Assembly (NCBI GenBank): GCA_903847975.1 | Contig: CAINFC010000052.1 | Location: forward strand, 1-64,000 | Reading direction: 5' to 3' | DNA: 64,000 nt | Source: an uncultured Acidobacteriota bacterium | GTDB lineage: Bacteria; Acidobacteriota; UBA6911; CAINFC01 | Shown here: piece by piece, positions 6,636 to 10,467 of the stretch | How positions within the stretch are numbered: position 1 is the first letter of the stretch | Layout of the letters: every line of letters starts with the position of its first letter | The notes under the pieces: generated by a model | Told to the model about the DNA's origin: nothing | Seen by the model: only the letters and a program-made list of their open reading frames with translations | Databases searched by the model: none | Program-made: the position numbers and the translations under genes

Positions 6636-6664
6636 GGAACTTTTTTCGATCCCTTTTCGTCATT
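6636..6664 (+). promoter_or_regulatory. ECF (sigma-E-like) promoter of the sigma factor gene
   Basis: GGAACTT at 6636-6642 and GTCATT at 6659-6664 are separated by 16 bases, matching the -35 and -10 pattern known for E. coli sigma-E promoters (GGAACTT, 15-17 bases, GTC plus A/T). It lies 20 bases before the ECF sigma start, as expected for a sigma factor that switches on its own gene. Recognition by this particular sigma factor is inference. Confidence 0.65.
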
Positions 6665-6683
6665 TTGAATTGGATGAGCAAGA

Positions 6684-7298
6684 ATGAGTTTTTGGAACCC
6701 GGCACAGTTTGAAGAAAAACTTGCCAAACGCTGTCTGGAAGGAGACGCTAGGGCATGGGAAGAACTGGTTCGTCTATATACGCGAAGAATTTACAACCTC
6801 GCGTACCGCTATCTGAGGAATGCCAGTCAGGCGGAAGACCTTACCCAGGAAATTTTCCTGCGAGTCTACCAGACCCTTTCCTCCTACCGGGCAGAAACGG
6901 GCAGTCTGACCAACTGGCTGCTGCGGGTGGCGCGCAACCTGATTATCGACCACTACCGGCAGGCCAAGCGGCATGCCGGGCATTCGGGAAGCGAGGAAAT
7001 GGAAAAGCTGGAGCTGGCCGATTCCAAGCAGGGAAGCGCCCTGGAGCGGGTTCAGCATCACCAGGACTGCCAGGCACTCTGGACGGCGCTGGGGAAGCTT
7101 TCGCCCGAATTGCGCGAAGCCGTGGTCTTGCGGGACCTGGAGGAGTTGAGCTACCAGGAAATCGAATCCATTCTTGGGGTTCCCCAGGGAACGGTCAAAT
7201 CCCGCATCAACCGGGGACGGCTGGAACTGGCCAGGGCCATGCGCGGTAGCCCGGAACAAAAATGGAAGCTTTCTTCGGCAGTCTCTGCCGCGGAGTAA
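6684..7298 (+). CDS. ECF-type RNA polymerase sigma factor (RpoE-like)
   Basis: The 204-residue protein has sigma region 2 (NLAYRYLRNASQAEDLTQEI, then the LTNWLLRVARNLIIDHYR core-binding and -10 recognition part) and region 4 with LRDLEELSYQEIESILGV and TVKSRINRGR as the -35-binding helix-turn-helix. There is no region 1 or 3, so it is an extracytoplasmic-function (group 4) sigma factor. The next gene, five bases on, encodes a zinc anti-sigma factor, and the upstream DNA carries a sigma-E-like promoter. These point to an envelope-stress circuit with autoregulation. Start ATG 6684 is the first in frame and follows a weak GAGCAAG site. Confidence 0.95.
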   Translation: MSFWNPAQFEEKLAKRCLEGDARAWEELVRLYTRRIYNLAYRYLRNASQAEDLTQEIFLRVYQTLSSYRAETGSLTNWLLRVARNLIIDHYRQAKRHAGHSGSEEMEKLELADSKQGSALERVQHHQDCQALWTALGKLSPELREAVVLRDLEELSYQEIESILGVPQGTVKSRINRGRLELARAMRGSPEQKWKLSSAVSAAE

Positions 7299-7302
7299 GA
7301 AA

Positions 7303-7947
7303 ATGCTTTGTCGAGAGTTTGAAGACTATATCAGCGATTATTGCGATGGCCTGCTGGGGGAAGCAGAACAAAAAAGCCTGGCCACCCATGCCGCCAGCTG
7401 TTCCGCCTGCCGGGAGTTGCTTCAGGATGTCCGGAACATCATCCAGCTCGGCCGGCGCTTTCCTGCCGACCCCGCGCCGGCCCGCCTCGAGGAGCGGATC
7501 CTGGCCGCAACCCTGGGGACGCAGGAGCGATTCTCCTGGAAGGACCTCCTGACAGGAAATTTCGCCTTCCTCAACCGCGTGCCGCGCCTGGTCATGGGCT
7601 GCTCGCTGGTGATCTGCTTTCTGAGCCTTTCGGCCTGGCGCCTGCAGACCAGCATCCCGGAGGGGGGCACCGCCACGCAGGTGATCCTTTCGCAGGTCGA
7701 CAGCTTCGCGCACGGAATTTACACGCAGGGTTTGCAGCTCTACTACGCCAAGAACCGGGTGGTCTCCGAGCTGGACTACATCAAGACCAGCCTGACCAGC
7801 CAGATCGAATACAGCTGGAACCAGATCACCGGGGGCAAAAAGAAGGAACCGGCCAAACCGGGCGCCGACTCCCTGCCGGGAAACAAGAAGCAGGAAAAGG
7901 AAGAGAAGCAGCATTCCATGGGACCATGCGATTCTTTTTCCGGTTAA
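7303..7947 (+). CDS. Membrane-anchored zinc-finger anti-sigma factor
   Basis: From ATG 7303 (in-frame upstream codons overlap the sigma gene) the product is 214 residues. The N-terminal zf-HC2 motif HAASCSAC gives H29, C33 and C36, the ZAS signature that binds an ECF sigma factor in the cytoplasm. One transmembrane segment lies at about residues 95-112. The remaining 100 residues would be outside, with a Lys/Glu-rich tail near the C terminus. Known members release the sigma factor after proteolysis or redox change; the signal here is unknown. Tight spacing to the sigma gene supports the pairing. Confidence 0.88.
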   Translation: MLCREFEDYISDYCDGLLGEAEQKSLATHAASCSACRELLQDVRNIIQLGRRFPADPAPARLEERILAATLGTQERFSWKDLLTGNFAFLNRVPRLVMGCSLVICFLSLSAWRLQTSIPEGGTATQVILSQVDSFAHGIYTQGLQLYYAKNRVVSELDYIKTSLTSQIEYSWNQITGGKKKEPAKPGADSLPGNKKQEKEEKQHSMGPCDSFSG

Positions 7948-7994
7948 TCATTGGATAGAAAACAGGGTTTTTAAAACAGAGCGAGGGGTGGTTT

Positions 7995-8630
7995 ATGAAT
8001 TGCGCCTACCATAACGATATCAGCGCGGAAAATCAATGCAAAAGCTGCGGGAGGGGCCTTTGCGCCGCATGCCATCACCAGATCCGTGGTAATGCCTACT
8101 GCCAGGACTGCCTGGTGCAGGGTGCGGAAATTGCGGAAAAAATACACACCGGCAAAACCTTTCTCCCGAACCCCACCAAGGCCGCTTTGTGTGCGATCAT
8201 TCCCGGCCTGGGCCAGGTCTATAACGGGATGTACTCCCTGGCCCTGAAGCAGTTCGCCATCTTTATCACCCTGAGCTGGATTTCCGACGAACTGCGCGGA
8301 CCGATTCACCTGGCCACCGTCTGCTTCTATTTTTACATGATCTTCGATGCCTTCCGGACGGCCCAGCTCCTGCAGGCCAAAGCCCTGCAGGGAGAACCGG
8401 TCGGCACCGGCGGTTTCGACCTGCTGGAAGAGAAGCAGACCCCGGTATGGGGTATCACCATGATCGTCCTGGGGGTCATTTTTCTGCTCAACAACCTGCG
8501 CATCATCGACGAAACGTTCGTCCGGCACGTATGGCCGCTGGCGCTGATCGGCGGCGGGGCTTACCTTATTTATCGCCACATGAAAAAGTCGCCGCAGCCC
8601 GCCGCCGTACCGCCTCCTCCGCAGGTCTGA
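7995..8630 (+). CDS. Zinc-ribbon/B-box, TM2-like and LiaF-like membrane protein
   Basis: The 211-residue protein starts with a B-box-like zinc cluster (C3, H6, C15, C18, C23, C26, C36, C39). It is followed by a TM2-like segment containing IIPGLGQVYNGM (about 68-79) with two or three membrane helices, and ends with a LiaF/DUF5668-like hydrophobic hairpin around WPLALIGGGAYLIY. The last segment recurs in the next two genes. No enzyme motif is visible. It lies 47 bases after the anti-sigma gene on the same strand and is probably part of the stress operon; function unknown. Confidence 0.7.
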   Translation: MNCAYHNDISAENQCKSCGRGLCAACHHQIRGNAYCQDCLVQGAEIAEKIHTGKTFLPNPTKAALCAIIPGLGQVYNGMYSLALKQFAIFITLSWISDELRGPIHLATVCFYFYMIFDAFRTAQLLQAKALQGEPVGTGGFDLLEEKQTPVWGITMIVLGVIFLLNNLRIIDETFVRHVWPLALIGGGAYLIYRHMKKSPQPAAVPPPPQV

Positions 8631-8693
8631 TTTTCCGCCCCGTTTCGCTCCCGGCAAAAACCTCTATCCTTTTATAAAGAATTGGAGTGTCTT

Positions 8694-8885
8694 ATGAACG
8701 GATCTAACACGAAAGGCCCCCTGATCTGGGGCGTGATCCTGATTCTGCTTGGACTGCTTTTTCTTATGCAGAACTGGTTTGGCGTACGTTTTGTATGGCG
8801 CTTGCTCGTCGACTGGTGGCCGCTTATCCTGATTGCCATCGGCGCCCGCAAAATCTACCGCTATTTTACCTTTCGCGGTGTCTAA
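8694..8885 (+). CDS. Small LiaF-like (DUF5668-type) membrane protein
   Basis: The 63-residue protein is almost only two hydrophobic helices: IWGVILILLGLLFLMQNW and WWPLILIAIGARKIY. It resembles the N-terminal transmembrane region of LiaF, a regulator of cell-envelope stress signalling in Firmicutes. ATG 8694 is chosen because GGAG at 8684-8687 is six bases upstream; the TTG at 8682 would place that site inside the gene. It ends ten bases before the next gene, which has its own strong AAGGAGGT site. Confidence 0.7.
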   Translation: MNGSNTKGPLIWGVILILLGLLFLMQNWFGVRFVWRLLVDWWPLILIAIGARKIYRYFTFRGV

Positions 8886-8895
8886 GGAGGTAACC

Positions 8896-10467
8896 ATGAG
8901 CCAGCAGAAGGTTCCAAGGAAAAGCGGCTTGTTCGGCTGTCTTCTGTTTCTTTACGTCGGCCTGGTTTTCCTGCTGGCAAAGGCGGGATACCTCTCCGAC
9001 GCCTGGCGGTTCATTGGACGCTACTGGCCGCTGCTGCTTATTCTGGCCGGAATTGCCAAGACCGTCGAATATCTGACCGGCGGCGCTTCGAAGCTGTTTC
9101 GCTGGGGCGAGGTTTTTCTGGTTCTCCTTTTGATCCTTTTCGGCCAGATCATCAACAAGGCGGCGCCCTTCCTGGATTCGCTGCCAAAAATCATCGACTG
9201 GGAAAGAGGCAGCCTGTCCGTGCAGTCGCTGTTCCGCGAGCCGTTCTCCTTTCCGGAGGAGCGAATCGTGGAGCTTAAGCCGGAAACGGTACTGTCCATC
9301 CACAACCGCCGGGGAGATATTTCCGTGATACCCGCTTCGGGGGGGCCCACCAGGATCCGCATTCAGAGGCAGGCTTTCGCCGATTCCGAAGAGGAAGCCA
9401 AAAGGGCCGCCGACAAAATTCAACCATCGATTGTCCAGGAGGGGGACCAGACCCGGATTACCGTCGATCCCCCGGAAGGAACGCGAGCCCACCTGGAAAT
9501 TCTGGCCCCTTCCCAGAGTACCCTCCTCCTCGATAGCGGCAATGGAGATATCAAGGCGGAGGGTTTCAGCGGCAAAGCCCACACCTTCCGATGCCAGCAT
9601 GGAAAGATACAGATCAGCGGCCTCACCGGCGAGGTAAACGCCTCCAATCAGAACGGCCGGATCCAGGCTGAAAACCTGACCGGGGCCGCCACCCTGAACA
9701 CTTCTCACGGCTCGCTGACGGCCCGTGAGATCCGTGGCGACCTGACCGTTGGCAACGAGAGCGGTTCCTCCGAGCTCTCGGACATAAAAGGAAATGTCCT
9801 GGTCCGCAGCGATCATGGCTCCGTTGCGGTCTTTAAGGCCGGCGGAAAAGTGGATATCGTTGCCCCGCAGTCCAAAATCATACTGGAAGAAGTCCAGGGA
9901 CCGGTGCTGATTGAGTCCAGCCATCGGGAAGTGCGCCTGACCCGAATCGCCTCTGCGGTAGAGGTAAAGCAAAAATACGGTTCCCTGCGCCTGGAAAGAA
10001 TCGTCGGGGCTGCCAAAGCCATCCTGGAGCACACCGAACTCAACGGTTTCGACCTGCAAGCCGGCCTGCAGGTGGAAGCGGAATACTCGGAAATCCACCT
10101 GGAAAAGACTGCCGGCCTGATTCACATTCGCAACCGGCTGAAACCGGTCACCATCGAGGAATTCAACTCCGCGATCCAGGTGGAAAACGAGAACGCCTCC
10201 GTGTACCTCATCTCCTCGGAATCCGTTCAGCAGCCGGTCCAGGTGCGGACGGACCATGGCAAAATCGAATTCCTGCAGCCGGAAAACAGCCGCTTCCGGT
10301 TGGCGGCCAGCACGCAAAGCGGACGAATTGTCTGCGAATTCCCGGATCTGCAGCCGGCCCGAAGCGAACGAAACCAGAAAAACCTGCAAGGAGAGCTTGG
10401 CAAGGGCGGTCCTCTGGTGACCCTGGAATCCAACCAGGGATCGATCTGGATCAAAAAGAAATCCTGA
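8896..10467 (+). CDS. LiaF-like membrane segment fused to a DUF4097-like beta-helix
   Basis: From ATG 8896 (perfect AAGGAGGT seven bases before it) the product is 523 residues. The first 100 residues hold three hydrophobic segments, including the WPLLLILAGIAKTVEYL stretch shared with the two preceding proteins. The rest is built of roughly eleven 20-residue strands ending in patterns such as GDIKAEGFSG, GKIQISGLTG, GRIQAENLTG and GSLTAREIRG. This is the repeating form of the DUF4097 putative adhesin, expected to make a right-handed beta-helix outside the membrane. It closes the stress operon; a structural or sensing role is inference. Confidence 0.75.
   Translation: MSQQKVPRKSGLFGCLLFLYVGLVFLLAKAGYLSDAWRFIGRYWPLLLILAGIAKTVEYLTGGASKLFRWGEVFLVLLLILFGQIINKAAPFLDSLPKIIDWERGSLSVQSLFREPFSFPEERIVELKPETVLSIHNRRGDISVIPASGGPTRIRIQRQAFADSEEEAKRAADKIQPSIVQEGDQTRITVDPPEGTRAHLEILAPSQSTLLLDSGNGDIKAEGFSGKAHTFRCQHGKIQISGLTGEVNASNQNGRIQAENLTGAATLNTSHGSLTAREIRGDLTVGNESGSSELSDIKGNVLVRSDHGSVAVFKAGGKVDIVAPQSKIILEEVQGPVLIESSHREVRLTRIASAVEVKQKYGSLRLERIVGAAKAILEHTELNGFDLQAGLQVEAEYSEIHLEKTAGLIHIRNRLKPVTIEEFNSAIQVENENASVYLISSESVQQPVQVRTDHGKIEFLQPENSRFRLAASTQSGRIVCEFPDLQPARSERNQKNLQGELGKGGPLVTLESNQGSIWIKKKS

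Follow-up and report, generated by a model that had tools for sequence, protein, structure and literature searches.

Within the window (the whole 64,000-nucleotide stretch of DNA that was analysed), GGAACTTTTTTCGATCCCTTTTCGTCATT begins at position 6636 and heads a row of five genes on the + strand, the whole module spanning 6636-10467. An ECF-type promoter is followed, in order, by genes encoding an ECF sigma factor, a ZAS anti-sigma factor, a zinc-finger/TM2/LiaF-TM protein, a 63-aa hairpin protein, and a 523-aa toastrack protein. This promoter and gene row had been described in the first-pass annotation, and direct reading and Pfam searches confirm both. Its neighbours are nrdR, on the opposite strand, and a convergent HIT-family gene. 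A search for RNA elements gave zero Rfam matches in the window.

The promoter (6636-6664, + strand) was read directly and consists of a -35 element GGAACTT at 6636-6642 and a -10 element CGTC/GTCATT at 6658-6664. The first gene (6684-7298, + strand) encodes a 204-aa ECF factor in which Pfam recognises Sigma-70 regions 2 (Sigma70_r2, 5e-22) and 4 (Sigma70_r4_2, 1.5e-17) and no region 3; TIGR02937 also scores above its cut-off. The second gene (7303-7947, + strand) encodes a 214-aa ZAS-type anti-sigma factor matching zf-HC2 (1.4e-8). Its zinc motif H29-x3-C33-x2-C36 (HxxxCxxC) is invariant across 22 aligned sequences and is followed by a hydrophobic stretch. One transmembrane (TM) helix lies at approximately residues 94-112, with a short C-terminal part predicted outside. 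By their domains and motifs, the ECF factor and the adjoining zinc-finger anti-sigma factor classify as an ECF sigma/ZAS pair.

Three proteins with LiaF-type hairpins

The third gene (7995-8630, + strand) encodes a 211-aa protein with an N-terminal, B-box-like Cys/His finger, a TM2-like pair and a LiaF-type hairpin, the last matching both PF18917 (LiaI-LiaF-like_TM1, 1.2e-10) and PF22570 (LiaF-TM, 3e-8). The B-box/TM2 front first assigned to this protein stands in part. The Cys/His finger pattern is present and AlphaFold2 predicts the finger fold confidently (mean pLDDT 85.3 for the protein), but Pfam does not recognise a B-box and TM2 appears only as a sub-threshold DUF5683 match. A structure search returned no significant solved relative, only weak matches to LIM-type zinc fingers. 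The model has four TM-length helices, which would place both ends of the protein on one side, presumably the cytoplasm. Relatives in L036, L048 and L066 (and L033) lack the N-terminal zinc finger, which shows that the module can do without it.

The fourth gene (8694-8885, + strand) encodes a 63-aa protein that comprises a LiaI-LiaF-TM hairpin and nothing more (PF18917, 4e-9). Some genomes keep it as a separate gene and many relatives have it fused with the toastrack gene, an alternation that argues for a physical partnership between the two products.

The fifth gene (8896-10467, + strand) encodes a 523-aa protein in which a LiaF hairpin and a third TM helix precede a long toastrack beta-helix. 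It matches PF13349 (DUF4097 Toastrack) at 6.7e-9 and LiaF-TM at 9e-6, the latter with 26.9 bits, slightly below the 27-bit cut-off; PF18917 scores 30.4 bits in the genome search. The hairpin had been said to be common to all three products, and PF18917 indeed has three matches in the 8.13 Mb genome, all of them inside this operon, which argues that the shared hairpin is no loose resemblance.

The AlphaFold2 model of the 523-aa protein (mean pLDDT 88.7, at least 95 through most of the beta-helix) contains helices at residues 12-29, 33-60 and 70-95, followed by a continuous beta-helix. The eleven rungs proposed earlier are borne out as a confident, continuous solenoid but not in number, since about thirteen 20-residue repeats are seen by eye. 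Toastrack structures are the nearest solved folds: Foldseek ranks 4qrk best (5.8e-6), then 3pet, 3ljy and 4opw. A second structure comparison aligns 204-218 residues to 3lyc, 3pet, 3ljy and 4opw (Z approximately 17, rmsd approximately 3), and longer, unrelated beta-solenoids score similarly in it. The protein therefore has a toastrack (DUF4097/DUF2154/DUF2807) sequence profile together with a predicted single-strand beta-helix fold.

Toastrack proteins of this type are predicted to have three TM helices here, five where the 63-aa hairpin is fused, and one where both hairpin parts are separate. Most of 28 relatives have one, three or five TM segments, a positive N-terminus and a beta-helix free of TM segments, and several have a single N-in TM helix directly ahead of the beta-helix; the even count in a few probably reflects a missed helix. 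An alignment of 28 rows had no conserved stretch, while one of seven rows was usable. The topology is drawn from a hydropathy script, charge counts and the AlphaFold model. An odd number of TM helices behind a positive N-terminus places the beta-helix in the periplasm, and we therefore predict a periplasmic toastrack domain, contrary to the general prediction by Ravi et al. 2024 (PMC11237479) that toastrack is intracellular.

The profile search of the whole genome found no LiaF domain outside the operon, indicating that there is no classical liaFSR locus. Neither a LiaS histidine kinase nor a LiaR response regulator is present in the operon, and the ECF factor and its anti-sigma factor occupy their place, as the first reading of the locus had held. 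A PspA/LiaH effector is also absent from the operon. The sole PspA match of the genome lies on another contig (L172, G000:C6:239705-240373), distant from the operon, with an ATPase-type gene on one side and a substrate-binding/ABC transporter cluster on the other. The same genome encodes a second toastrack pair, with signal peptides, at L171:6300-9500 (G000:C322). That pair sits behind its own ECF and anti-sigma genes and has no motif in front.

Conservation of gene order and promoter

Across the Acidobacteriota, the third gene lies downstream of 67 ECF genes; a recognisable anti-sigma gene accompanies 61 of them and a toastrack gene 58. Conversely, loci fetched by the third gene alone carry a same-strand ECF gene upstream in 18 of 20 cases. 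Relatives of the third gene occur in 88 of 149 sampled Acidobacteriota genomes, the weaker ones spanning the TM2/LiaF part only, and by sequence comparison no other protein accompanies the sigma/anti-sigma pair as constantly as the third. More than 20 of 60 relatives encode a full-length toastrack relative (25-29% identity), and toastrack neighbourhoods keep the same gene order wherever the contig is long enough. Named Acidobacteriota with this order include Terriglobia, Bryobacterales, gp1, gp5 and Solibacteraceae. Nearly all relatives found in named records come from Acidobacteriota MAGs, of which a few may duplicate other sampled genomes; six recognised duplicates (L080-L085) were excluded. 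Searching the named genomes with P0004 alone gave no match. Bacteroidota were considered as a wider home and rejected, since 3 of 99 genomes yielded LiaF-hairpin fragments only and no full third-gene protein. The claim that these genes belong together thus holds in dozens of Acidobacteriota.

Four operons (L119, L132, L133 and L134) have the ECF gene, the anti-sigma gene and the third gene with no toastrack gene after them, showing that toastrack is not obligatory.

The putative promoter was compared across the same operons. Of 65 orthologous ECF genes that have the third gene downstream, 49 carry the motif GAAC-N17-CGTY in front (25 of 29 in the first set alone), against a mean of 0.4 and a maximum of 3 in dinucleotide shuffles, the operons sharing ancestry so that these counts are not independent. 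Other spacers between 10 and 25 nt gave at most 4 matches. Of the eight ECF genes in these loci that lack the third gene, one has the motif. The strict motif is missing from 16 of the 65 operons. The window's own copy is typical, except that it reads CGTC where CGTT is commoner. Selection acting on a promoter would be expected to leave such an exact 17-nt spacer in distant families, and the putative autoregulation of the sigma factor at its own promoter, as first suggested for this locus, is strongly supported on comparative grounds. Judged from sequence, an operon that recurs across the phylum with the same promoter is a real system.

A large regulon was considered and rejected. The strict motif has 7 matches in the window's own genome against 3 in the reversed control, and it is not enriched genome-wide across 38 genomes of the class (60 matches against 95). 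Any regulon is therefore likely to be very small, with the circuit mainly serving its own operon. Two further matches in the window's genome were set aside as unconvincing promoters: L067 falls at the beginning of what reads as a pyruvate phosphate dikinase gene, and L070 has no clear target.

One candidate target in trans was found in relatives. The 17-nt-spacer motif lies 19-133 nt upstream of an unlinked toastrack lipoprotein gene in five of six close orthologues (L169, L170, L182, L183 and L190, but not L173); L169 and L170 were found through the motif itself, and among the other four orthologues it is present in three. The L190 orthologue is a signal-peptide toastrack protein instead of a lipoprotein. 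For comparison, none of 18 other toastrack ORFs has the motif, and the background is 0.07 per stretch. At L170:4244-6347 (G027:C246) the lipoprotein gene is divergent from a Band_7/SPFH gene, and two motifs stand back to back, one for each gene. No orthologue of the lipoprotein appeared in the window's genome in the searches made.

Proposed circuit and alternative readings

The gene order, promoter conservation, domains, predicted topology and fold, and in-trans motif can all be read from the sequences, and they form the basis of the following proposal. We consider it moderately probable that the operon encodes an autoregulated ECF sigma/membrane anti-sigma circuit for inner-membrane (envelope) stress, with a LiaF/toastrack membrane complex as its output. 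In the resting state, the zinc-finger anti-sigma factor, anchored by its one TM helix, would hold the sigma factor. Release of the sigma factor would follow a disturbance sensed at the membrane or from the periplasm, and the factor would then start transcription at GGAACTT-N16-GTC before its own gene. The single transcript would yield more sigma and anti-sigma factor together with three inner-membrane proteins bearing LiaF-type hairpins. These three probably bind one another, packing via the hairpins into one complex with the zinc finger exposed to the cytoplasm and the long toastrack beta-helix projecting into the periplasm.

Within such a complex, the anti-sigma factor would more likely pair with the third protein, as a feedback element or co-sensor, because that protein is retained even where toastrack has been lost. 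For the toastrack proteins an effector role is likelier, since this promoter is also found ahead of the unlinked toastrack lipoprotein gene in relatives. The operon is probably an envelope-protecting system; we infer its role, whether in envelope stress or in surface sensing.

A different and rather doubtful reading makes the LiaF-type proteins the sensor and inhibitor. Their complex would keep the anti-sigma factor bound to the sigma factor until a ligand on the periplasmic beta-helix brought about release, and co-transcription would provide homeostatic feedback. LiaF inhibits LiaS in Firmicutes, which offers a precedent; the third gene accompanies the ECF/anti-sigma pair more constantly than any other (18 of 20 loci), as a regulator would be expected to do; and the long periplasmic beta-helix offers a surface for a ligand. 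If so, the LiaF/toastrack complex might control an anti-sigma factor in the way that a histidine kinase is controlled by LiaF, one sensing module being joined to another transducer phylum-wide, an analogy that we put forward tentatively. Against this reading, the promoter motif on the unlinked toastrack lipoprotein gene looks like output, and some intact ECF/ZAS/third-gene operons have no toastrack.

It is quite improbable that the operon is a surface or adhesion module, in which the beta-helix would bind to a surface layer or to polysaccharide, its amount being set by the ECF circuit. Its structural neighbours do include annotated putative adhesins and other beta-helix surface proteins, but the adhesin names are depositors' guesses on toastrack folds, or reflect the common solenoid shape. 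There is also no sign of export to the cell surface, and three TM helices would hold the protein in the inner membrane. That an ordinary ECF/anti-sigma pair adjoins unrelated membrane genes by chance, both being common in themselves, is refuted, to the point of near certainty, by the phylum-wide gene order and promoter conservation and by the presence here of all three LiaF domains of the genome.

Comparison with known systems

Toastrack and LiaI-LiaF-TM were defined by Ravi et al. 2024 (PMC11237479), who describe PspA-free toastrack contexts with a B-box, LiaF-TM and an operonically linked sigma factor, and who propose sub-membrane signalling complexes. The four-gene context that they name is built around a DUF2089 zinc-ribbon/HTH/SHOCT protein, for which none of the five operon proteins has a Pfam match; their other toastrack contexts do not require DUF2089. 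The main text of that study names no ECF/ZAS pair, promoter or Acidobacteriota.

The LiaFSR/VraTSR systems of Firmicutes likewise place LiaF-TM hairpins and toastrack beside a regulator of membrane stress. Their regulator is a histidine kinase/response regulator pair, whereas here it is an ECF sigma/anti-sigma pair. Further, the parts are here distributed among three genes, and the TM helices number three in the toastrack protein (five if fused) as against four in LiaF.

A regulatory parallel is SigW/RsiW, also an ECF sigma factor with a ZAS anti-sigma factor that drives toastrack genes. The B. subtilis SigW regulon includes yvlABCD (toastrack and PspC), pspA, and the flotillin-type yuaG in yuaFGI (PMC3498285). 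In that regulon the toastrack genes are remote members accompanied by PspC, whereas here they share one operon with the sigma factor, and the operon, unlike the SigW targets, uses LiaF-type hairpins and a zinc-finger/TM2 protein. No link to the operon could be established for the SigW induction seen with high sugar in Granulicella WH15 (PMC7074687). The RpoE-RseA and SigE-type pairs are also alike in having sigma regions 2 and 4, a zinc-finger anti-sigma factor with one TM helix and a GAAC...CGT-type promoter, autoregulated in those pairs and putatively so here. They differ from the present system in that it has dedicated, co-transcribed LiaF/toastrack genes and hardly any other strict-motif targets.

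The novelty first claimed for this arrangement is accordingly narrowed. ECF control of toastrack genes is already known in principle, SigW being an example, and contexts with a B-box, LiaF-TM and a sigma factor were sketched in 2024. The literature searched contained no pairing of DUF4097 with an ECF operon of this form, and we found no description of a self-contained operon with its own anti-sigma factor, phylum-wide conservation, promoter, periplasmic topology and in-trans target. A widespread putative signalling system of the Acidobacteriota, a dominant and poorly understood soil phylum, gains a concrete anatomy of promoter consensus, operon, topology and candidate remote target. Two questions thereby become testable: on which side of the membrane toastrack domains lie, and whether LiaF-type proteins act beyond histidine kinases.
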